Source: Alphaproteobacteria bacterium (GTDB lineage: Bacteria > Pseudomonadota > Alphaproteobacteria > SMXQ01). Taken from it: a stretch of DNA of 44,055 bases. The position numbers and the translations under genes are program-made. Each line of letters starts with the position of its first letter. The stretch's first letter is position 1. The stretch spans positions 1-44,055 of the forward strand of contig SMXQ01000039.1 of the NCBI GenBank assembly GCA_004356985.1, read 5' to 3'. The notes under the pieces were generated by a model. That model worked only from the letters and a program-made list of their open reading frames with translations. It did not search any database and was not told where the DNA came from. This document shows positions 1 through 14,986 of the stretch, one piece after another.

Positions 1-1290
1 AACACCCTAAAAATGCTCAAGGCCTTGAACATGGACGCGTCGATCCTCAGTGGCCTTGACAAGGAACTCGCGGTGCCCCAGGCCTGGGTGGACGGCGCCA
101 AGAAGGAAGGCGCGGTCAAAGTCTGGACCACCTATCGCCGCAAGCCCTGGAACAAGATGGGGAGAATTTTCTCCGAGCGCTATCCCTACATCAAATTGCA
201 GCACGACCGTGTCTCCCATACCTCGCGGCGCGTCATCAAGCCGCTCGTCGCCTTCAAGACGGGCCGGGTGCTGACCGACGTGATCACCGGCCTTTCCGGT
301 TCGGTCCATATGTTCGAGGCCGCCGGCGCCTTCGTCGATCTCAGGGACCTGCCGTCCTACAACAACGTGCCGAAATCCCTGCATCATCCCAAGGGCCTGT
401 CGGCGGTGGGGCGGATTCGCTATTACTGCATGTCGTACAACACCCAGAAGGTGAAGAAGTCCGACCTGCCGAAGACCTGGGACGACATGGTCAACGGCAC
501 GCGGTGGGCCAACAAGAAGCTCGGCCTGGTGAATCGGCCCAACAACTGGCTGCTGCCGATCTGGAAGCATAAGGGCTCGGCCTGGGGCAGGGATTTCACC
601 GACAAGCTGTTCGCGCTTCGCCCGCAGCTCCGCAAGGAAGGCCAGGGCGCGGTGCTGGCCCTGGTGATCGCCGGTGAAATGGATGCCGCGATACCCTCGG
701 CCATGAACCGCGTCGCCGAATACATCAAGAAGAACGCCAAGACGCCGATCGGCCATCACTGCCCGACGCCGGTGCCCTTCACCATCTCCGAAACCGGGGT
801 CATGGCCAAGAGCGCGAACCCGAACGCGGCCAAGATCTATGTGAACTGGTACCTGTCCAAGGAAGGGCAGTTGGCGCAGTTCTGGGCTAATGATTCGACG
901 CCGTCCCACAAGGAATTACGCGACAAGCGGTTCGTCTATTGGCCCGATGCCATCAAGGGTAAGGAATTGGCCCAGTTCAGTTACAAGAATCCCGAGGTCA
1001 ACGCCGAGGTGCTCAAGTATTGGGATAGCAAGTGGATCGCCGTTGCCGGCAAGCCCAAGGGCCCGCAGGCCTTCAAGGGCACGGTGCTCAGCTCCAAGCG
1101 CGGTGGCCGCAGGATTACGCTCAGGGTCAAGGGCAAGGAGGTGCTCTTCCGGATCAGCGGGTCGCGCTCGGAGGTCATGATCAACGGCAAGAGCGCCGAG
1201 CGCGGCAACGTCAAGGCCGGCATGAAGTGCTCGGGGACCTATGTGCCCAAGGGCAAGGCCGTCGAAGCCCGCAAGTTCAACTGCAAGTAA
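1..1290 (+). CDS. ABC transporter substrate-binding protein, ferric-iron type (5' end outside window)
   Basis: This is a solute-binding protein of the ferric-iron/polyamine-like extracellular family that would deliver substrate to the permease and ATPase encoded just downstream. The reading frame is open to the window edge, and the first internal ATG (13) has no signal peptide after it. The stretch around AWVDGAKKEG is where mature family members normally begin, so the true start and export signal lie upstream. The two-lobe binding fold occupies roughly residues 20-345 counted from that ATG. A further ~70 residues (about 354-425) are not part of the family and form a small basic domain with KRGGR, SGSR, INGK and KAGMKC motifs and two cysteines. 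A closely similar tail ends the TctC-like protein at 12613-13956. The ligand is unknown; iron is only one possibility. Confidence 0.85.
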   Translation, partial: NTLKMLKALNMDASILSGLDKELAVPQAWVDGAKKEGAVKVWTTYRRKPWNKMGRIFSERYPYIKLQHDRVSHTSRRVIKPLVAFKTGRVLTDVITGLSGSVHMFEAAGAFVDLRDLPSYNNVPKSLHHPKGLSAVGRIRYYCMSYNTQKVKKSDLPKTWDDMVNGTRWANKKLGLVNRPNNWLLPIWKHKGSAWGRDFTDKLFALRPQLRKEGQGAVLALVIAGEMDAAIPSAMNRVAEYIKKNAKTPIGHHCPTPVPFTISETGVMAKSANPNAAKIYVNWYLSKEGQLAQFWANDSTPSHKELRDKRFVYWPDAIKGKELAQFSYKNPEVNAEVLKYWDSKWIAVAGKPKGPQAFKGTVLSSKRGGRRITLRVKGKEVLFRISGSRSEVMINGKSAERGNVKAGMKCSGTYVPKGKAVEARKFNCK

Positions 1291-1347: not shown

Positions 1348-1488
1348 GGGCGGTGGGACGGCGTTTGGCGAGGCCGGGGCCATGCCTTGACCGCCATACC
1401 CCGATCGGTCACTGTTGACTTCAATGGGCATCGGCGGCGGGTCCGCCGGCAAAATGCCGAATTCTGAATGTGGGGTGGAGATACTAGA

Positions 1489-3264
1489 ATGGCGGTAGAA
1501 ACCTACCCTCTCGTGCGTCGGCGGTTTTCATTTATCCGCGCCTTGGGGCGGGTGAATTACTGGCATTGGACGCTGCTGATCGTGGTTTCCACCCTGGTGG
1601 TGACGCCCCTGGCACTGCTGACCCTGGGCAGTTTCTCCACCTCCGCGCTGCCCACCGATATCTCGATCTCAAATCTCAGCTTCGAGAATTACATCGACGT
1701 CTGGACCGACCCCGCCACCTATGCGCTGTTCTACAACACCGGCGTCTACGTGACCGGCGCCACCGCCTTCGGCATCACCATGGCGGCGGTCTTGGCGTGG
1801 CTGGTGGAGCGCACCAATATCCCGGGCAAGATCTGGATCTATGCCGGCGTGCCGTTGACGCTGGTTTTGCCCGGGCTCCTCCAAGCCATGGCGTGGGTAT
1901 TGTTGCTGAGCCCGCGCATCGGCTTTATCAACACATTCCTCATCGATACCCTGGGCTTGGGGATCGAGCCCATCAACATCTATTCCCTCGGCGGCATGAT
2001 CTTCGTCGAGGGGTTTCGGTTGGTGCCGACGGCCTTTTTGATGATGGTGCCGCTGTTGCGCTCCATGGACCCGTCGCTCGAGGAAGCCGCCGCCATGTCC
2101 GGCGCGTCGCCCGGCACCACCCTTAGGAAGATCACCCTCCAGCTGATGCTGCCGGGCCTGTTGGCGGTCTTGATCTATCAGTTCATCACCGCCTTCGAGG
2201 TGTTCGAGGTGCCCGGCATCCTCGGCATGCCGGCCGATATCTTCGTCTTCTCGACCAAGATTTACGCGCTTCACCGCTCGGTGACGGTGGAACCCTCCTA
2301 TGGCGAGGCCAATGCGCTGTCGATGATCTACCTGCTGGTGGCCGTGGTGGCGACCTATCTCTATTCCCGGGTCATCGCCAAGTCGGAAAAGTTCACCATC
2401 ATCACCGGCAAGGGGTACCGGCCGCGGCTCATGGAACTGGGGCGCTGGAAGTGGCCGGCCTTTTCGCTGGTGGTGTTGTTCCTGGTGGTCACCATCTTTC
2501 TGCCGTTCCTGGTGTTCCTCTACGTGTCCTTCCTGCCTTACCTGATGACGCCGTCCTTGGAGGCCTTCCAGGCCATGACGTTCGAGTTCTATATCGAGGT
2601 CTTCAACGACGAGTTGATCGGCATTTCGCTGTGGAACACCTTCGTGATGACCGTGGTCACCTCCACCGCGGTGGTGGTGGTCTCCTTCCTCATATCCCTG
2701 GTGGTGGTGCGCTCGAAATTCTGGGGACGTAGGATGCTCGATCAGATGGCCTTCATGCCCCACGCGATCCCCGGCATCGTCATGGGCGTCGCCTTCCTGT
2801 GGGTATTCATCAACATGGACAATATGGGGATTCCCATCTATGGCGGCATCTGGTCGATCACCATCGCCTTCACGGTGGGCTATATCGCCTATGGCACCCG
2901 GGCCATGAATGCCGCCATCCTGCAAATCCACAAGGACCTGGAAGAAGCCGCCTATGTTTCTGGTGCCGTTCAGTGGCGCACCATGTGGCGCATCTTCTAC
3001 CCGCTGATGATCCCCACCTTCGTCGGCGTCTGGATTTGGGTGATGTTGCACGCCGTGCGGGCCGCCAGCATGCCCCTGATCCTGAGCGAGGGGCCGGAGA
3101 ATCAGGTGCTCGCGGTGTTGGTCTGGAACATGTGGGACGAAGGGGCGGGGGGCATCCAGATGGTCGGCGTCATCGGCGTCATCATGATCGTGCTGCTGAT
3201 GGGGGTGACCGTGTGCTTCCGTGCCTTCAGCTTCGGTTCCAGCCGCCATATCCAGAAGGCCTGA
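1489..3264 (+). CDS. ABC transporter permease, fused two-domain ferric-iron type
   Basis: Inner-membrane subunit of the importer, 591 residues. It contains two tandem binding-protein-dependent transport permease domains, as in FbpB/AfuB-type iron permeases, with about twelve hydrophobic segments. Each half carries an EAA-type loop for the ATPase: LEEAAAMSGASPG near residue 200 and LEEAAYVSGA near residue 485. I chose the ATG at 1489 because GGTGGAG stands 8 bases before it; the earlier in-frame ATG at 1468 has no comparable ribosome site. The gene lies between the binding protein and an LVIVD-repeat gene, with the ATPase further downstream, so the transporter is complete. Substrate cannot be deduced from the permease. 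Confidence 0.9.
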   Translation: MAVETYPLVRRRFSFIRALGRVNYWHWTLLIVVSTLVVTPLALLTLGSFSTSALPTDISISNLSFENYIDVWTDPATYALFYNTGVYVTGATAFGITMAAVLAWLVERTNIPGKIWIYAGVPLTLVLPGLLQAMAWVLLLSPRIGFINTFLIDTLGLGIEPINIYSLGGMIFVEGFRLVPTAFLMMVPLLRSMDPSLEEAAAMSGASPGTTLRKITLQLMLPGLLAVLIYQFITAFEVFEVPGILGMPADIFVFSTKIYALHRSVTVEPSYGEANALSMIYLLVAVVATYLYSRVIAKSEKFTIITGKGYRPRLMELGRWKWPAFSLVVLFLVVTIFLPFLVFLYVSFLPYLMTPSLEAFQAMTFEFYIEVFNDELIGISLWNTFVMTVVTSTAVVVVSFLISLVVVRSKFWGRRMLDQMAFMPHAIPGIVMGVAFLWVFINMDNMGIPIYGGIWSITIAFTVGYIAYGTRAMNAAILQIHKDLEEAAYVSGAVQWRTMWRIFYPLMIPTFVGVWIWVMLHAVRAASMPLILSEGPENQVLAVLVWNMWDEGAGGIQMVGVIGVIMIVLLMGVTVCFRAFSFGSSRHIQKA

Positions 3265-3399
3265 CCCACCGGATCACCGCAAAATGCCCTCGGCATGGCG
3301 GGGAGGGCCGGCTTGCGCTCCATGCGCCGATCACGCAGAATTCATCCCCCATGAAGAAGGCCGAATGGGCTTTCCATGAACCGAGAGGAGGGCCCGAAG

Positions 3400-4728
3400 A
3401 TGGCAGCCGACACCAGCGACCTGGGATTCATCGCCCACAACACCCGGCATCTTTGCCGCCTCGACCTGCCCGGCGGCGGCCAGGTCACGGCGCACGGCGA
3501 CACCCTTTATATCGCCCATATGGAACCCCCCTTCGGCACTTCCATCCTCGATATTTCGGACCCCCGCGATCCCAAGGTCATCGGCAAGGTGGAACTGGAG
3601 AACGACCATTCCCACAGCCACAAGGTGCGGGTCGCGGGCGACATCATGATTACCAATGCCGAGTTCTGGTATCGCGGCAGCCTAGCCCAGGGCCGCAAGG
3701 TCCGGAGCACCCAATTGGCGCTGGAAAAGACCCTGGGACGGCCGCCCACGGACCAGGAAATCGCCGCCGAGCTCGGCACCACCGTCGCCGATGTGCTGGA
3801 GATGGTGCGCCTGGAGAACGCCACCGGTTACGACGAGGGCGGGTTCCATATCTGGGACGTTTCCGACAAGGCCAATCCCAAACACATCCACTTCGAGCAG
3901 ACCTTCGGCAAGGGCTGCCACCGCTTCGACATGGATGAGAATTACGCCTACATGTCGACCGAGGTGGAGGGCTTCGTCGGCAATATCTTAGTGATCTACG
4001 ATATCGGCGACCCCGCTAAGCCCCAGGAGGTCTCGCGCTGGTGGCTGCCGGGCCAGAACGTCGCCGCCGGGGAGACCCCGACCTGGGATGGCGCCTCTAT
4101 CCGCCTTCACCATGCGCTGCGGTTCGGCGATACCATGTGGGCCGGTTGCTGGGGCGGCGGCGTCGCGGCGATCGATGTCTCGGATATCAAGAATCCCAAG
4201 ACCATCGGCACCTACGACTACCACCCGCCGTTCCGGGAGGTGAGCCACACCTTCATGCCGGTCCCCTTCGAGGTCGGCGGCCGCCGGGTGGCCCTCGCCA
4301 TCGACGAGGAGGGCCGCCACCCGGCGACCGGCCAGATGCATGCCTTCATGTGGGTGATCGACGTCGGCGACATCGCCAACATGGCGCCCATCGCCACCTA
4401 TTCCATGGACGAGGGCGACAGCCCCCATGCGCGCCCCGCGGTCGCCGCCGGGCTCCGCTTCGGCGCCCATCAGTTCCGCGAAAAGATGACCGATACCTTA
4501 GTCTACGCCACCTGGTTCGCGGGCGGGCTCAGGATCATCGATGTCAAGGACCCGCTTCTCCCCGAAGAGGTCGGGTTCTTCATTCCCGCGCCCAGCCCGG
4601 CGGCGACCATGGTGGAAGGATTCCGCTCGGTGCAAAGCAACGACGTCGATGTCGATGACCGGGGCGTGATTTATATCCTCGACCGCTTGAACGGCCTCGA
4701 CGTGGTCGAATACGTTCCCCACACCTAG
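3400..4728 (+). CDS. LVIVD-repeat (beta-propeller-like) protein with sigma region 3-like insert
   Basis: A 442-residue protein made of LVIVD-type repeats, recognisable as recurring blades such as TSILDISDPRDPKVIG, GGFHIWDVSDKANP, ILVIYDIGDPAKP, VAAIDVSDIKNPKTIG and LRIIDVKDPLLPEE. The start at 3400 follows GAGAGGAGG with an 8-base gap; the ATG at 3376 overlaps that site and is less likely. There is no signal peptide, so it is probably cytoplasmic. Between the first and second blades (about residues 108-140) is a helical insert, LGRPPTDQEIAAELG followed by TVADVLEMV, which closely resembles sigma-70 region 3. The gene lies inside the ABC transporter gene set, between permease and ATPase, suggesting a sensory or accessory role in the same pathway. 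No enzymatic motif is seen and function is unknown. Confidence 0.75.
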   Translation: MAADTSDLGFIAHNTRHLCRLDLPGGGQVTAHGDTLYIAHMEPPFGTSILDISDPRDPKVIGKVELENDHSHSHKVRVAGDIMITNAEFWYRGSLAQGRKVRSTQLALEKTLGRPPTDQEIAAELGTTVADVLEMVRLENATGYDEGGFHIWDVSDKANPKHIHFEQTFGKGCHRFDMDENYAYMSTEVEGFVGNILVIYDIGDPAKPQEVSRWWLPGQNVAAGETPTWDGASIRLHHALRFGDTMWAGCWGGGVAAIDVSDIKNPKTIGTYDYHPPFREVSHTFMPVPFEVGGRRVALAIDEEGRHPATGQMHAFMWVIDVGDIANMAPIATYSMDEGDSPHARPAVAAGLRFGAHQFREKMTDTLVYATWFAGGLRIIDVKDPLLPEEVGFFIPAPSPAATMVEGFRSVQSNDVDVDDRGVIYILDRLNGLDVVEYVPHT

Positions 4729-4770: not shown

Positions 4771-4872
4771 CATTGAAGTGGCGGCGGGAAACCGTCACAC
4801 TAAAATTATGTTGCCAAGGCGGGCATCATGCACCCGCCGAGAACAATTCATAGGGTAGAGGATTGGGAGACC

Positions 4873-5964
4873 ATGATTAATATCAAAAATTTACACGTCC
4901 ACTACGAAAGCACGGAAGGTCGTGTCCACGCGGTCAGAGGCATCGACATCAATGTCGAACGCGGGCAGTTTTACACCCTGCTGGGCCCGTCGGGCTGCGG
5001 CAAGACCACCACCCTCCGATCCGTCGCCGGGCTGGAACGCCCCAGCGCGGGAACCATTTCCATCAACGACGAGGTCGTGTTCTCGACCGATGACCACACC
5101 ATGGTGCCGCCCTACCGGCGGGAAATCGGCATGGTTTTCCAAAGCTACGCCATATGGCCCCACATGGACGTCTTCAACAATGTCGCCTTTCCCCTGCAGG
5201 AGATGAAGGGGCGATTTTCCAAGGCCGAAATCCGCGACAAGGTTTTGCAGGTGCTGCACCTGGTGCAGCTCGACGGCTACGAGGATCGGCCCGCGCCGTT
5301 CCTGTCCGGCGGACAGCAGCAGCGCCTGGCCCTGGCCCGGGCGCTGGTCCGTGAGCCGGCGGTGCTGTTGCTGGACGAGCCGCTTTCGAACCTCGATGCC
5401 AAGCTTCGCGAGGAAACCCGGGCGGAAATCCGCGATCTGGTGAAGCGCCTGGGCATCACGACGATCTATGTCACCCATGACCAGTTGGAAGCCTTGACCA
5501 TGTCCGACGTCATCGCCGTCATGGACGAGGGCAAGATCGTCCAGGAAGGTTCACCGGTGGATATCTACCGCAAGCCGGCGGTCAGATTCGTGGCCGACTT
5601 CATCGGCCTCACCAATTTCATCGAAGGCCGGGTTCGGGCGGTGGGATCCAACGGCGACGGCATGGGCGAAGTGGAAACGCCCTCGGGCATGATCAAGTGC
5701 GAATTGCCTCAAGGGGTGACCACCGGTGCCGAGGTGGTGATCGTGGTCCGGCCCGAGGACGTGAACCTGGTCCCCAATGGCGGCGAGAACGTTCTCCAAG
5801 GCGAAGTGGGCGCGGCCATGTTCATGGGGGATACCAAGGAAGTTCAGATTAAACTGAAGGAATCCTTGATTCGCTTACGGTTGCATCCGACCACGGAAAT
5901 CGACGAAGGGCAGGTGGTCTATCTCGAACTGCCCCCGGGGTGTTGCCGGGCCTTGATCGGCTGA
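4873..5964 (+). CDS. ABC transporter ATP-binding protein with TOBE domain
   Basis: Energising subunit of the importer, 363 residues. It has Walker A GPSGCGKTT (residues 38-46), a Q-loop in FQSYAIWPHM, the signature LSGGQQQR (about 146-153), Walker B VLLLDEP and the switch histidine in YVTHD. The C-terminal ~110 residues form a TOBE-type regulatory domain, as in FbpC, PotA and CysA proteins. The ATPase homology starts at MINIKNLHVHYE, so I chose the ATG at 4873; an in-frame ATG at 4828 would add 15 residues. The gap and tandem repeat upstream allow separate control from the permease gene. Together with the genes at 1-1290 and 1489-3264 it completes one transporter. Confidence 0.88.
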   Translation: MINIKNLHVHYESTEGRVHAVRGIDINVERGQFYTLLGPSGCGKTTTLRSVAGLERPSAGTISINDEVVFSTDDHTMVPPYRREIGMVFQSYAIWPHMDVFNNVAFPLQEMKGRFSKAEIRDKVLQVLHLVQLDGYEDRPAPFLSGGQQQRLALARALVREPAVLLLDEPLSNLDAKLREETRAEIRDLVKRLGITTIYVTHDQLEALTMSDVIAVMDEGKIVQEGSPVDIYRKPAVRFVADFIGLTNFIEGRVRAVGSNGDGMGEVETPSGMIKCELPQGVTTGAEVVIVVRPEDVNLVPNGGENVLQGEVGAAMFMGDTKEVQIKLKESLIRLRLHPTTEIDEGQVVYLELPPGCCRALIG

Positions 5965-7087: not shown

Positions 7088-8143
7088 TCAGTTCAGGCCG
7101 TAGAGGGTGGATGGATTGGTGTCGAGGATCTTGTGGACCGAGTCGGGGCCGAGATTGCCTTCGTCGCCCAAACGCCGCATGGCGTGGATGTCGGTGGCGG
7201 TGTCCCGGTGCCCGTAATCGGTGCCGATCAACAGGTGGTCGTCGCCGACCTCATCGACCAGGCCTGGAATGTCGTCGGTCATCTGGGTGGTGATGTAGAA
7301 ATTGTTTTCGCCGAGGATATCGCCTGGCACCGGCCGGCCGCGGCGGTTGAGCCGGATACGCGCCTCGCCCAGCATGTAGGGCAGCCATTGGGCGCTGGCT
7401 TCGATGAAGGCCCAGCGCAAGCCCGGATAGCGGGCCGGGATTTCCTCCTGGGCGAGCATGGAAAACGCCCCCAGCACCGGGAACTTGGCGCGGAACATGG
7501 CGACGTCGCCGATATAGGCGTCGTGAACCGAGAAACTGTTGATGCCGGCATGGAAGGTGATGGCGAGGTCGAGCTCCTGCACCATTTCGTAGAACGGAAA
7601 GAAATAGCGGTGGGACGGCAGGCGTTCGCATTCCATGCCCCGCATGAAGATGCCGCAGGCGCCGTTTTCCTTGCAGAATTCGAGTTCCGCGCGGACCTTG
7701 CCGGCATCCACCAGGGACAGCAGCGGCGGCACGCAGACCCAACGCAGCCGGCTTTTTTCCTGCTTCCAGATGTCGGCCATCCAGCGGTTGTAGGACCGCG
7801 TCAGGGCGAATTCGACGTCGTGCTCGCGGGTCAGCGGGCGGAGGAACAGGGTGGGAAAGATCACCGCGACGTCGACGCCGATCTCGTCCATGTGATCGAG
7901 CCTGGCCCGGATGTTGGTCAATTCCCGGGCATCGGCGGGGACGTCCTGGCCGACGTTGCTGCCCTTGGATAACAGGCGTTCGTCGATGACCCAGTATTCC
8001 TTGCGCTGGTTGGGCCTCCGGGGCGCGCCGTCATCGGCCGAGCGCTCGAAAATCTGCGGCCGGAAATCCTGCTCGAAGTCCCGCATGTAGGACCAGGTCT
8101 CGGGCGTCTCGATCACATGGGCGTCGGCATCGACCGTGGGCAT
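7088..8143 (-). CDS. Amidohydrolase-2 family metal-dependent enzyme (paralogue 2)
   Basis: A 351-residue protein of the same subfamily as its two neighbours and the most similar to paralogue 1 (shared GAPRRPNQR, NVGQDVPADAREL and YNRWMADIW-type blocks). Metal and catalytic motifs are intact: VDADAH at the N terminus, FHAGINS near residue 200, RWAFIE and GTDYGHRDTA. It is the middle gene of the three-gene unit; a purine-rich GAGGAAAGAGA stretch precedes the ATG. The pocket-region residues after the HAG motif (SFSVHDAYIG here, SVAVHDAMNG in paralogue 1) differ, which may mean different substrates within a common reaction type. Function is inferred from family only. Confidence 0.85.
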   Translation of the reverse strand: MPTVDADAHVIETPETWSYMRDFEQDFRPQIFERSADDGAPRRPNQRKEYWVIDERLLSKGSNVGQDVPADARELTNIRARLDHMDEIGVDVAVIFPTLFLRPLTREHDVEFALTRSYNRWMADIWKQEKSRLRWVCVPPLLSLVDAGKVRAELEFCKENGACGIFMRGMECERLPSHRYFFPFYEMVQELDLAITFHAGINSFSVHDAYIGDVAMFRAKFPVLGAFSMLAQEEIPARYPGLRWAFIEASAQWLPYMLGEARIRLNRRGRPVPGDILGENNFYITTQMTDDIPGLVDEVGDDHLLIGTDYGHRDTATDIHAMRRLGDEGNLGPDSVHKILDTNPSTLYGLN

Positions 8144-8169
8144 GGGCTGTCTCTTTCCTCCTCGGGCCG

Positions 8170-9228
8170 CTAGGGCGCGAAGCCGTAAAGGGCGCAGGCA
8201 TTGGGCCCGAGAATATTATCGATGATTTCCGGCGCGATATTCGATTTTTCCTTCATCAGGCGCATGGCCTCGATCTCGGTCGCGGTATCGTGATGGCCGT
8301 AATCGGTCCCCACCACCAGCCGGTCGGCCCCGGCGATGCCGGCGATATAGCCGATATCCTCGTTGACCTGGCAGGCGACATAGAAATTGTTGTCGCCCAT
8401 GGAATCCTCGGAAAAGCGCCGGCCGCGCCGCTTGAAGCGGCGGCCCAGCTCGCCCAGCACGTAGGGCAGCCAGGCCGAACCGGTTTCCAGGAAGGCCCAG
8501 CGCAGCTTGGGATAGCGCGCCGGAACCTCCTGCAGCATGAGGGAATGGAAGGCGCCGATGACGGGAAACTTGAACTTGGACAAGCCGTCGGCATTGATGA
8601 AGAAATCGTGCACGGCAAGGCTGTCGTTCCCGGCATGGAAACAAATCGGAAGATCCAAGGCCTGGGCTATTTCATAAAGCGGGTGGAAATAGGGGTCGGT
8701 CAATTGCCGGTCGCAGGCAAGGCCGCACATGAAGATGCCGCAGGCGCCGTTTTCCTTGCAGAATTCGAGTTCCGCGCGGACCACGCCGGGATCGCCTATC
8801 GACTGGAGCGGCGCCAAGGCCACCCACCTGAGGCGCCCTTGGGCCTCCTTCCAAATGTCGGCCAGCCAGCGGTTGTAACTGCGGATCAGGGCCAGTTCGG
8901 TCTCCGGCCTGCGGGTGATGGGGCGCAGGAACAGGCTGGGGTACAGCACCTGAACATCGATGGTGAGCTGGTCCATGTGGCGCAGCCGCTTGTCGATGTC
9001 GCTCAGTTCGCGGGCGCCGCGATCGGTGTCGAGGCCGATATTGCGCTCCCGCTCGATCAGCTTGCCGTCGATGCCCCAGAACTCTGTCTGCTTCCTTGGC
9101 CGGCCTTCCATGGGCGCGCCGGCGGCGGTGGAGACCGTGACCGGGCGATGCACCAGGTCCGGCCCCTCCATATAGCTCCACGTGGCCGGCGTTTCGATCA
9201 CATGGGCATCGGCATCGATGGTCGGCAT
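8170..9228 (-). CDS. Amidohydrolase-2 family metal-dependent enzyme (paralogue 3)
   Basis: First gene of the three-paralogue unit, 352 residues, with CGGAGGG just before the ATG. It retains IDADAH, FHAGND, a glutamate in RWAFLE and GTDYGHHDTA, so it is probably active. It is the most divergent of the three (APMEGRPRKQTEFWG instead of the RRPNQR block). Its promoter must lie in the 258-base divergent region shared with the SDR gene, where a palindrome at 9306-9320 and a TATCAT -10-like box at 9295-9300 are seen. Like its neighbours it lacks a signal peptide and would act in the cytoplasm. Confidence 0.85.
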   Translation of the reverse strand: MPTIDADAHVIETPATWSYMEGPDLVHRPVTVSTAAGAPMEGRPRKQTEFWGIDGKLIERERNIGLDTDRGARELSDIDKRLRHMDQLTIDVQVLYPSLFLRPITRRPETELALIRSYNRWLADIWKEAQGRLRWVALAPLQSIGDPGVVRAELEFCKENGACGIFMCGLACDRQLTDPYFHPLYEIAQALDLPICFHAGNDSLAVHDFFINADGLSKFKFPVIGAFHSLMLQEVPARYPKLRWAFLETGSAWLPYVLGELGRRFKRRGRRFSEDSMGDNNFYVACQVNEDIGYIAGIAGADRLVVGTDYGHHDTATEIEAMRLMKEKSNIAPEIIDNILGPNACALYGFAP

Positions 9229-10427: not shown

Positions 10428-12413
10428 ATGGTTGATTTCGACATCGTCTGGCAGGGTATGACAGGCATTCTTCAATTCAAGCCGCTGATGATCATGCTCA
10501 TCGCGGTGGTGGCCAGCAGCGTTTTCGCGGCGCTGCCGGGGGTGGGTTCATCGACGCTGTTGGCGATGTCGATTCCCTTTGCCATGACGCTGCCGCCCTA
10601 TGAGTGCATAGCGCTTATGCTGGGCATCACCATCATCTCCAACACCGCCAATACCTTTCCTTCGGTGTTGATCGCGGTTCCCGGCGGGGCAGGGTCCCAG
10701 GCGACCATCATCGACGGCTATCCCATGGCGCGAAAGGGCGAAGCCAACCGGGCCTTCGGCGCGGCCTTCACGGCTTCGGTCATGGGCGGATTGTTCGGTG
10801 CCGTGGTGTTCCTGTTTTCCATTCCCATCGTCACCCCCCTGGTGCTTCTGTTCGGATCGCCCGAGCTTCTGATGCTGGTCCTGTGGGGGTTGAGCGCGGT
10901 CGGCATCCTATCGGGCAATACCCCCATCAAGGGGTTGATGGCGGCGGCGTTGGGGCTCGGTGTCGCCCTCATCGGCACCGAAGTCCGCACCGGCATCGAC
11001 CGCTTCACCTTCGAAGGGTATTACCTGACCGACGGTGTTCATATCGCCTTGGTGGGGCTCGGCATGTTCGCCATCCCCGAACTCATCGACCTCTCCATCC
11101 GGCGCTCTTCCATTTCCGAGACCGGCAAGCTGGGCTCCGGCCTGTGGCAGGGATGCAAGGACGCCTTCAAGAACTGGTGGCTGGTGATCCGCTGTTCGGT
11201 GGTGGGCGTCTGGGTGGGAATCCTGCCGGGCCTCGGCTCCTCGGTCGCCGACTGGTTCGCCTACGCCCATGCCGCCCAGACCGAGAAGGATACCGAAAAC
11301 TTCGGCAAGGGCGACGTGCGCGGGGTGATCGCGCCGGAAGCCTCCAACAACGCCAAGGAAGGCGGCGCGCTGATTCCGACCATGTTCTTCGGCATTCCGG
11401 GCTCTACCTCCATGGCCCTGGTGTTGGTGGCATTCATCGCCGTTGGAATCGTGCCTGGCGAGGCCATGGTCACCACCACCCAGTATTACATCTTCGCCAT
11501 GATCACCCTGATGGTGGTCGCCAATATATTTGCCGCCGGGCTGTCCATGGGCCTGGCCGGGACCTTCGCCAAGGTCTCGGTGATGCCGTTCTACGTCATC
11601 GTGCCGATGACCCTGATCTTCACCATCGCCGCCGCTTACGGGATATCGTTCTCTTACGAAGACTTGGCGACCCTGGTGGTGTTCGCCTTGATCGGCGTCT
11701 TCATGCGGCGCTATGGCTGGCCCCGGGCGCCGGTGCTGGTGGCGGTGGTCCTCGGCCCCCAGATCCAAACCTACCTGTGGCTTTCCATCGACCGATACTC
11801 GTACGAATTTTTGTTGTTCCCGGGCGTGCTGGTGATAGAGGCGATCATCATAGCCACCGTGTTCTTCCCCATGTGGCGCGACCGCAAAAAGAAAAAGGTC
11901 CAAATGGACTATTACCTGGAAGAGGACCAGCCCAGGATGCAGTCCAAAGGCGGCGTGGTCTTCACCTGCCTGTTTCTGGCGGTGATGATCTGGGGTGTGT
12001 TCGAGGCCATGCAATGGCCCATGCGGGCGGCGATGGATGTCTATTTCGTCGCCGCCTTGGGTGTTATGCTTGGCGGGCTTCAGCTTGTGGTCGATTTTGT
12101 GCGCTACCGCCGCAATCCCGAAGGCATGGAAAAGCCCATCGAAGGCAGCAATATCCACATGCGCTATTTCGAGACGGCGGGCTGGATCGCGGCGACCCTG
12201 GCGGGTATCGTCTTGATCGGCTTCCACATCACGTTCTTCTTGGTGCCGCTGGCCTACGCCCGCGTCTATGGCGGGAGTTGGCGCTTGGCCCTGACACTGG
12301 GGGTCTTGTCGGAAGCCATCCTCGTCGGCTTGTTCGACACCCTCATCCGCATCATTTGGCAGAAACCGATCCTGACACCGTTCCTTTATCCGCTGGAATT
12401 GTCGTTCCTGTAG
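10428..12413 (+). CDS. Tripartite tricarboxylate transporter permease, TctA-TctB fusion
   Basis: A 661-residue inner-membrane protein. Residues 1 to about 495 are the large TctA subunit: LPGVGSSTLLA near the N terminus, the IPGSTSMALVL second-half motif, and repeated DGYPMARKG-type segments. The remaining ~160 residues carry about four further membrane segments, starting near VFTCLFLAVMIWG, and look like the small TctB subunit. The usual two membrane proteins thus appear to be joined in one chain, and no separate tctB is present. It starts 38 bases after the SDR stop and is followed by a TctC-type binding protein. The family imports carboxylates by a cation gradient; the substrate here is unknown. 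Confidence 0.88.
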   Translation: MVDFDIVWQGMTGILQFKPLMIMLIAVVASSVFAALPGVGSSTLLAMSIPFAMTLPPYECIALMLGITIISNTANTFPSVLIAVPGGAGSQATIIDGYPMARKGEANRAFGAAFTASVMGGLFGAVVFLFSIPIVTPLVLLFGSPELLMLVLWGLSAVGILSGNTPIKGLMAAALGLGVALIGTEVRTGIDRFTFEGYYLTDGVHIALVGLGMFAIPELIDLSIRRSSISETGKLGSGLWQGCKDAFKNWWLVIRCSVVGVWVGILPGLGSSVADWFAYAHAAQTEKDTENFGKGDVRGVIAPEASNNAKEGGALIPTMFFGIPGSTSMALVLVAFIAVGIVPGEAMVTTTQYYIFAMITLMVVANIFAAGLSMGLAGTFAKVSVMPFYVIVPMTLIFTIAAAYGISFSYEDLATLVVFALIGVFMRRYGWPRAPVLVAVVLGPQIQTYLWLSIDRYSYEFLLFPGVLVIEAIIIATVFFPMWRDRKKKKVQMDYYLEEDQPRMQSKGGVVFTCLFLAVMIWGVFEAMQWPMRAAMDVYFVAALGVMLGGLQLVVDFVRYRRNPEGMEKPIEGSNIHMRYFETAGWIAATLAGIVLIGFHITFFLVPLAYARVYGGSWRLALTLGVLSEAILVGLFDTLIRIIWQKPILTPFLYPLELSFL

Positions 12414-12612: not shown

Positions 12613-13956
12613 ATGACTCGTTTCAGCTTGAGAACACTGGTGTTCGGCGTCGTCGCCGCCCTGGGATGGGCCGGCGCCATGGCAGGCGCCAAGGCCGCGC
12701 CCGATTACAAGGACAAGAAGATCAACGTCATCATCGGCTCGTCGCCGGGCGGTGGGACCGACGGCACCACGCGCCTGGTCGGCCGCTTTCTGGCGAAATA
12801 CCTGCCGGGCCAGCCGCAGATGATCTTTCGCAACATGCCCGCGGGGCATGGCGTAAAGGCCAGCAACTATTTTTACAACCAAGCCAAGCCTGACGGGCTG
12901 ACCTGGTTCGGCGGGGCCAGTTCCTACGTCGATCCCAACAATCTGCGCAAGAAGGTGGTCAAATACAATCCCACCCATTACGAATACATCGGCGCCATCA
13001 TCCGCGGCGGGTCGGTGATGATCATAAGCAAGGCGGTGCTTAAGAATCTCACCGACAAGTCCATGAAGCCGGTCATCGTCGGCACCCTCGACGGCAGCCG
13101 CAGCTGGGCCCAGGCGCTTGCCTGGGGGTCGGAGTATCTCGGCTGGAACCTCAGATTCATCGTCGGCTACCCGGGTTCGGCGGCGCTGACCCTTGCCCTC
13201 CGGCGCGGCGAGATCGACATGTTTGGCACCTCCGGGATCCAGATCCTCAGGTCGCTGATCAAGACCGGCAAGTTCCAGGGTTTGGCCCAACTGGGCGAGG
13301 CCGAAGCGGGTGGCGTGGTGCGCCGTAAGTCCTTCCCCGACGTGCCGACCTTGCCCGCGATGATGAAAGGCAAGACCACGGGCATCGCCAAGGAGGCGTT
13401 CGATTTCTGGAGCAGCACCAACCAGATCGACAAATGGTATGCGCTGCCGCCCAAGACACCCAAGGATATCGTCGCCGTCTACCGCGCCGCCTTCACCAAG
13501 GCCACCAAGGACCCGGAATTCATCAAGTTCGGCAGGCATCAGTTCAGCGTCGATTTCCGGACCGTTACCGCCGAGACCATCGCCAAGTTGATCGGCGCCA
13601 CCGCCTACCCGAAACTCGAGCTGATGGAAACGATCCGCCAAATCCGTATCAAGAACGGGCTGCCCGCGGCGCGGCTGTCGGAGGCCGAATTGGCGAAATT
13701 GGCCAAGAAGCTGGGGGGGCCTGGGCTGAAGGTCAAGACCAAGCTGCTGGCGGTCAAGCGCGGCGGGCGCTGGCTCCATTTCAAGAACAAGGGGGCGGCG
13801 CACAAGGCCAAGGTGTCGGGTTCGCGCACCAAGGTCACCATCGACGGCAAGAAGGCCAAGCGCAAGAAGCTGAAGGCCGGGATGATGTGTGAGATCGTCT
13901 ATGGCGCCAATGGCGGCGAAGTGAAGACGGTCAGCTGTTCCACCAGCCAGACCTAG
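12613..13956 (+). CDS. TctC-type substrate-binding protein with C-terminal extra domain
   Basis: Periplasmic binding protein of the tripartite tricarboxylate family (Bug/TctC), 447 residues, partner of the TctAB fusion upstream. It has a signal peptide (basic MTRFSLR, hydrophobic core, cut near AKAA-PDY), then INVIIGSSPGGGTDGTTRLVG and the typical RNMPAGHGVKASNY loop. The family normally ends near 320-330 residues. Here a linker follows (about 355-375) and then a lysine/arginine-rich domain, residues about 372-447, with KRGGR, SGSR, IDGK and KAGMMC motifs and two cysteines. That tail matches the tail of the ABC binding protein at 1-1290. A GGGAGAC site precedes the ATG. Confidence 0.88.
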   Translation: MTRFSLRTLVFGVVAALGWAGAMAGAKAAPDYKDKKINVIIGSSPGGGTDGTTRLVGRFLAKYLPGQPQMIFRNMPAGHGVKASNYFYNQAKPDGLTWFGGASSYVDPNNLRKKVVKYNPTHYEYIGAIIRGGSVMIISKAVLKNLTDKSMKPVIVGTLDGSRSWAQALAWGSEYLGWNLRFIVGYPGSAALTLALRRGEIDMFGTSGIQILRSLIKTGKFQGLAQLGEAEAGGVVRRKSFPDVPTLPAMMKGKTTGIAKEAFDFWSSTNQIDKWYALPPKTPKDIVAVYRAAFTKATKDPEFIKFGRHQFSVDFRTVTAETIAKLIGATAYPKLELMETIRQIRIKNGLPAARLSEAELAKLAKKLGGPGLKVKTKLLAVKRGGRWLHFKNKGAAHKAKVSGSRTKVTIDGKKAKRKKLKAGMMCEIVYGANGGEVKTVSCSTSQT

Positions 13957-13993: not shown

Positions 13994-14986
13994 TTGGACC
14001 ACGTACAGTATCCCTACCGGTCATCGAGCCATTTGGTCTTGATGCACGTCATCAACGAATGCGGCGCCTGGGAACGCCACGGCCTTGTGGTCGACTACGA
14101 CAAGGGCATCAATCGCGACGACGCCCATAAACTGGTGCCGACGGGGGAGGTGGAGTTCGTTTCGGGCAACCACGTGTCCACCTACGCCGCCCGCGCGCGG
14201 GGAGACACCTGGGCCTATCTCGGCCAGACCATCTCCAAGAACAACCTTTCGTTGGTCACCCGGCCCGATATCGGCATCGAGAAACTGGAGGACGTCCGCA
14301 AACGCAAATTCGGCTCCCGCGGGCGTCATCCGGGCCTCAATACCTGGCTGTACCTGAAGCAGAACGGGCTTGACCCGGATACCGACCAGGTCGAGATCAT
14401 CCGCGAGGAACGGGTCGAACTGCCCGACGGCACCTTCAAGCTGAACCGCAAGAGCCTCATGGAAATGCTCAAGGACGGCGATATCGATGCCTGTTTCATG
14501 ACCCTTCCCAACAAGGAATTCGCCCAGCGCGAGGGCCTTAAGGTGATCGACCTGGTGCCTCAGGACATGGTCTTTTTCATGACCGTGTCGTCTTCCATGA
14601 AAATGGTGGAGGAACGCCCGGACATCGTCGAGCGGATGCTCAAGGGCGTCCTCGAGGGCATCGCCTTCTTCAAGACCGAGAGGGAAAAGACCATCCAGAT
14701 CATCATGGACAAGCACAAGAAGGAAGGCGATCTCGACCGCCAAACGGCGGAACTGCTGTACGACGATTTCGCGCCGATCCTGGAGCCCAGGCTTTATCCC
14801 GGGCTCAACGCCATTTCCAATGTCTATCAGGAAGCGCTCAAGCAGGACGAGAAGGCCGGCGATGCCGCGCGCATCCACCCGCTGGCCCTGTGGGACTTCC
14901 ACTTCCTGCGCGAGATCGACGATTCCGGGTTCATCGACGACCTCTACAAGGACCACCCCGAACATCTCGAGGGTCACGGGGGATGA
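13994..14986 (+). CDS. NMT1/NitT-TauT-like binding-fold protein without signal peptide
   Basis: A 330-residue protein with the fold of NMT1/THI5 and NitT/TauT periplasmic binding proteins; it shows segments such as GEVEFVSGNHVSTYAARARGD and SLVTRPDIGIEKLEDVRKRKFG. It begins with TTG at 13994, preceded by GAGGAAGG with a 4-base gap, and no ATG fits as well. There is no signal peptide or lipobox, so it should stay in the cytoplasm. Enzymes such as 4,5-dihydroxyphthalate decarboxylase use this fold without export, so a catalytic or sensing role is possible. It is the last gene of the SDR-tctAB-tctC unit and is followed by a hairpin. No permease or ATPase of its own kind is adjacent. Confidence 0.75.
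   Translation: MDHVQYPYRSSSHLVLMHVINECGAWERHGLVVDYDKGINRDDAHKLVPTGEVEFVSGNHVSTYAARARGDTWAYLGQTISKNNLSLVTRPDIGIEKLEDVRKRKFGSRGRHPGLNTWLYLKQNGLDPDTDQVEIIREERVELPDGTFKLNRKSLMEMLKDGDIDACFMTLPNKEFAQREGLKVIDLVPQDMVFFMTVSSSMKMVEERPDIVERMLKGVLEGIAFFKTEREKTIQIIMDKHKKEGDLDRQTAELLYDDFAPILEPRLYPGLNAISNVYQEALKQDEKAGDAARIHPLALWDFHFLREIDDSGFIDDLYKDHPEHLEGHGG

Follow-up and report, generated by a model that had tools for sequence, protein, structure and literature searches.

The solute-binding proteins of Gram-negative bacteria are generally regarded either as free to diffuse or as anchored by a lipid, and we know of no explanation for the large expansions of TctC proteins, many of which have no membrane partner. 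TctC proteins are described as being about 300 residues long when mature (PMC5812351). The protein encoded at 12613–13956 of the stretch of DNA analysed here (44,055 nucleotides from an alphaproteobacterial genome, called the window below) resembles the TctC/Bug family (PF03401; TphC, Bug27 and BugD structures) in the fold of its body, but differs in carrying a C-terminal tail: the solved TctC chains that it matches are 288–302 residues long and have none, and we found no known TctC or Bug protein described with an extra C-terminal barrel. The Sulfolobus bindosome, in which sugar-binding proteins are assembled at the cell surface (PMC4187195), is like the arrangement that we propose below in that the binding proteins of several transporters are held together in the envelope; it differs in being archaeal and in having no OB module, and the analogy is functional only.

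The window encodes two binding proteins that end in this tail, which we refer to as the module. The relevant features are as follows.

1–1290 (+): ABC-type solute-binding protein (SBP_bac_8/1/6 by Pfam), tail-bearing; 5′ end lost at the contig start
1042–1287 (+): C-terminal module of the ABC-type protein; invariant cysteine codons at 1228–1230 and 1282–1284
1468–3264 (+): ABC permease (BPD_transp_1), adjoining the tailed ABC binding protein
4828–5964 (+): ABC ATPase (ABC_tran and TOBE_2), in the same gene run as the tailed ABC protein
10428–12413 (+): TctA membrane component, 661 residues, TctA domain at residues 20–437; directly upstream of the tailed TctC
12613–13956 (+): TctC/Bug-type binding protein; Sec-type signal peptide at the N-terminus, module at the C-terminus
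13663–13722 (+): linker from body to module in the TctC-type protein, residues 351–370; pLDDT block means 64 and 50
13723–13953 (+): C-terminal module of the TctC-type protein, a predicted six-stranded OB-like barrel; invariant cysteine codons at 13888–13890 and 13936–13938

The bodies of the two tailed proteins belong to distinct Pfam families, SBP_bac_8/1/6 and TctC. The body of 1–1290 is over the Pfam cut-off for SBP_bac and has permease and ATPase genes nearby, and that of 12613–13956 passes the TctC cut-off (29.2 bits against 27) and has the TctC fold according to a Foldseek search with its AlphaFold model (E = 4.5e-17). The carriers thus have the look of functional parts of transporters: TctA lies directly ahead of the tailed TctC, and a permease and an ATPase come after the tailed ABC protein. 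A preliminary description of this DNA had claimed that these bodies are unrelated and that the tails behind them align, and we confirm that the bodies are of different families and that the tails match. The ABC-type protein ends in KRGGRR...SGSRSEVMINGKSAE...KAGMKC...NCK and the TctC-type protein in KRGGRW...SGSRTKVTIDGKKAK...KAGMMC...SCSTSQT; the tails align without gaps over 61 residues at 43% identity (BLASTP, E = 2e-9), with the shared features where they had been placed. The two tails are also each other's significant matches, as a search of the whole genome (2.69 Mb in 169 contigs, the window being contig C119) with the TctC tail found 38 places, one of which is the ABC tail (E = 2.3e-9). 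The observation made on two proteins was thus real but understated, because the tails are not a pair but members of a family with dozens of copies per genome. The tail had further been said to end in a pair of cysteines; the pair is present, but the TctC tail continues with STSQT beyond its last cysteine.

The module is a lineage-restricted family, with dozens of copies on the nutrient-binding proteins of one uncultured alphaproteobacterial group. The window's genome contains about 38–40 copies (38 places by the single tail, 40 by a profile of 37 tails), and there are 7–69 copies per genome in all 11 genomes examined from its order, which represent one family and five genera. Among 385 sampled genomes from the class, clear matches outside the order were confined to two families with 1–4 copies per genome: four genomes of family f105 carry 2–4 copies each, and a lone copy is present in one genome of the other family. 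Two additional matches in this sample were marginal. In a sample of 399 genomes from the phylum, the window's genome was the only one with clear matches; a weak match (E = 3e-4) fell in a 126-residue frame, an exported protein that Pfam identifies as DUF5666. A scan of named genomes, with a closer subset of tails as query, found the named relatives with the module to be metagenome-assembled genomes of uncultured alphaproteobacteria, recorded as Alphaproteobacteria, Rhodospirillales, Rhodospirillaceae or Proteobacteria. A plasmid collection gave no match to the module.

The loci retrieved contain 171 modules in 168 open frames. As assigned by HMMs built for this analysis, the body is of TctC type in 141 of these frames and of ABC type in 20, and is missing from 7. 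Five of the seven bodiless frames are lone modules; the other two are short and probably represent fragments. Among 35 carriers from the window's genome, Pfam identified 16 as TctC and 4 as SBP_bac, and the remainder cluster with those. The tail is located at the extreme C-terminus, ending 0–5 residues short of the stop, and in three proteins (binding proteins, at loci L046 and L199) two C-terminal modules occur in tandem. A simple scan found a Sec-type signal peptide in 140 of 151 carriers and a lipobox in only one; the carriers therefore have no lipid anchor that would do the job of a tether. It had been anticipated that the tail would be found on diverse exported proteins: the carriers are indeed exported, but they are not diverse, all being binding proteins or lone modules. 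On the other hand, the description of the tail as portable is well founded, since it occurs on TctC, ABC and lone exported proteins, in tandem copies, and scattered over the TctC tree.

Tailless TctC paralogues share genomes with tailed ones: genome G005, for example, has 59 TctC matches and only 7 tails. It is therefore clear that the tail is not required for a TctC protein as such. The median open frame is 448 residues for tailed TctC proteins and 381 for tailless ones. On a tree of TctC bodies (138 tailed and 48 tailless) the tail requires 13 changes, compared with 42.5 when the trait is shuffled, and the well-supported branches force at least six, which indicates that the tail was gained or lost repeatedly. 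In a tree of the tails, which has only 77 columns and is poorly resolved, the ABC tails appear in several places (9 changes), and they may nevertheless have a single origin.

A pair of cysteines, mostly 16 residues apart, is present in 171 of 171 modules, as the preliminary description would lead one to expect, although the collecting profile itself contains cysteines, and the count thus describes the family as found. Exactly two cysteines are present in 167 of the 171. The glycines of the module are 98–99% conserved, the lysine before GM is 96% conserved, and the basic positions (GR, SGSR, GK, R and K) are conserved in most tails. In most genomes the tails have a median net charge of +25 to +27 per 100 residues, while that of the bodies is +6 to +7; it is lower at +12 in G010 and +3 in G005 and G009, of genus g3. 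The 18 low-charge tails keep basic residues at columns 84 (94%), 60 (83%), 32 (72%) and 80 (67%). Because the tails of genus g3 are near-neutral, charge alone is not the mechanism, and a purely electrostatic tether is weakened as a general account. Between orthologues of G000 and G006 the tails are as conserved as the bodies (median 69% and 62% identity respectively, 27 pairs). For a given divergence of the bodies, tails from the same genome are more similar by about 2–6 points; these pairs are not independent, and we therefore make no claim of homogenisation within genomes.

The module is probably an OB-like domain of about 75 residues, containing a putative disulfide. An OB fold is a small closed β barrel of at least five strands, and the AlphaFold prediction from the alignment of 37 tails is a barrel of this kind with six strands (pLDDT 87.9). 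In the model of the full-length TctC-type protein, body and module are confident and are joined by a low-confidence linker (50–64 over residues 351–370). The body of this model matches a terephthalate-binding protein, TphC and Bug27 (Foldseek, E from 1e-16 to 1e-17). Foldseek searches with the module model returned OB proteins, namely an S-layer self-assembly domain, LysRS, IF1, CusF and a cold-shock protein, none of them below E = 0.001. The AlphaFold model and these matches support, as a prediction, the OB-like fold suggested earlier. The best of these matches is the self-assembly domain from the S-layer of Viridibacillus arvi (PDB 9fs9), which is of similar size (TM 0.6); it is a weak match (E = 0.007, 11% identity) and gives no sign of kinship. 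No match below E = 0.001 was found in a viral structure library.

We also looked for the module among known domains. Pfam and NCBIfam contain no model that matches the window tails, and across the 37 tails there were only scattered weak matches; we therefore rejected an explanation by a known domain. A PDB sequence search with a single tail or the profile gave nothing significant, and the open-access literature searched contained no description of the module. The closest candidate is DUF5666 (PF18914), of which the same literature contained brief mentions only. Like the module, DUF5666 is a small exported OB-like domain, and a true DUF5666 protein is matched weakly by the tail profile; unlike the module, the DUF5666 sequences examined have no cysteine pair. 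The two tails alone gave no match to PF18914, which was likewise absent from the families listed for the 37 tails at E ≤ 1. Aligning the module with DUF5666 using hhalign gave a probability of 17% for 37 tails, which rose to 62% (P = 7.5e-5) when 171 modules were used, with 53 columns in register at 15% identity; reversed and column-shuffled controls gave 0.3% or less. A search for additional DUF5666 relatives found only two weak ones. On these profile comparisons the module is likely, though not proven, to be a distant and cysteine-stabilised relative of DUF5666. The suggestion that it is an undescribed domain thus stands as regards Pfam and NCBIfam, qualified by this likely distant link, and the module is an obvious candidate for inclusion in Pfam as a new family.

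Lone modules, which are small exported proteins consisting of a signal peptide and the module, occur in three genera: one in G000 (L225:3388-3867), one in G006 (L226:5541-5855) and three in G010 (L227). Four cysteines, and hence a second pair, are found in those of G000 and G006 and in one of the three from G010. In all three genomes the gene order is TctA, a further open reading frame, the lone module, and then directly a tailed TctC, and the tailed TctCs adjoining lone modules form one supported clade in the body tree. The intervening frame, about 230 residues long in G000 and G006, has no Pfam match and is probably TctB. The TctA frame of the window (10428–12413) continues for about 220 residues after the TctA domain; this extension may be a fused TctB that Pfam does not recognise.

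Given that the only carriers are binding proteins (141 TctC-type, 20 ABC-type) or lone exported modules, the function of the module should lie with solute capture; and as these binding proteins serve two unrelated transporters, it is not specific to one membrane complex. A role in docking or clustering is the simplest account of a module that stands by itself or in tandem, that invariably occupies the C-terminus after a linker, and that many paralogues lack. The preliminary description had suggested that the tail may anchor, target or pair binding proteins, which is an inference. We tentatively propose, as the likeliest reading, that the tail is a docking or clustering module or tether, to which we assign a probability of about 0.45. 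It would fold independently as an OB-like domain, probably closed by one disulfide, and a predicted flexible linker would join it to an otherwise ordinary periplasmic binding protein. The tails could then attach binding proteins from different transporters to a single partner that they share in the envelope, for which an anionic glycan or lipopolysaccharide, peptidoglycan, or a common protein are candidates; alternatively, they might dock onto each other and onto the lone module protein encoded with one of the transporters. In either case, loaded binding proteins would be kept at high concentration close to the membrane transporters rather than being free to diffuse. The weak Foldseek match to the S-layer self-assembly domain also speaks for this proposal; the tailless paralogues, the near-neutral tails of genus g3 and the Foldseek values of the module, all above E = 0.001, count against it.

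Several other roles would also place such a domain on binding proteins. It could be an accessory ligand-capture domain that binds an anionic substrate or polymer through its basic positions and hands small ligands on to the body. Oligosaccharides and nucleic acids are common ligands of OB barrels, TctC proteins typically bind carboxylates, and the tails are strongly basic in most genomes, with basic positions partly retained even where the charge is low; but the same module is carried by TctC and ABC proteins, whose substrates are presumably different, and is near-neutral in G005 and G009, and we consider ligand capture rather unlikely. That the tail is only a stabilising or neutral appendage with no partner, spread by duplication and recombination as the binding proteins expanded, seems to us improbable: copy number does track this expansion, and a trait that is easily gained and lost could account for the 13 changes on the TctC tree, but the two cysteines are invariant in 171 modules, the tails are as conserved as the bodies, and lone module genes have been retained in three genera.

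Less probable again is that the tail is a signal for sorting or secretion, recognised by a dedicated system as the C-terminal domains of type IX secretion are. In favour are its restriction to one lineage, its dozens of copies per genome and its strictly C-terminal position on exported proteins. However, its cargo is limited to binding proteins or lone modules, in contrast to the diverse cargo of a type IX-like system; it also occurs alone and in tandem, it has a confidently predicted and cysteine-conserved fold, and the f105 genomes retain merely 2–4 copies. There is a slim chance that the cysteine pair is not a structural disulfide but a redox or metal site resembling that of CusF, which is among the Foldseek matches (E = 0.02), given two invariant cysteines. 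Against this, the CusF-like set of Met, His and Trp is absent: no His or Trp is conserved, the sole conserved Met is beside the first cysteine, and only the two cysteines are fully invariant. They are about 16 residues apart and lie on or beside the last two predicted strands, as those of a structural disulfide would, and a second cysteine pair is present in three of the five lone modules.

That one module is shared by dozens of binding proteins from two families of transporter suggests some control over where these proteins are located or pooled. A wider possibility, which we regard as doubtful, is that the order has a gathering system in which many TctC-type and some ABC binding proteins would be tethered via the OB module to a shared scaffold, with the lone modules as scaffold parts or regulators. 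The module offers a single domain to purify, to delete, and to pull partners with.

The window contains other genes close to the two transporter loci. Directly downstream of the tailed TctC is a gene for an NMT1/THI5-like binding protein of 330 residues (13994–14986, +), for which no tail match was reported, and between the loci there are two adjoining Amidohydro_2 genes on the opposite strand (7091–9228, −). An LVIVD-repeat protein (3376–4725, +) matches sigma-70 region 3 at residues 106–148 (E = 3e-8). This stretch is spanned in relatives (in G006, 73% identity over residues 16–449), and some other copies of the LVIVD protein align only to either side of it.
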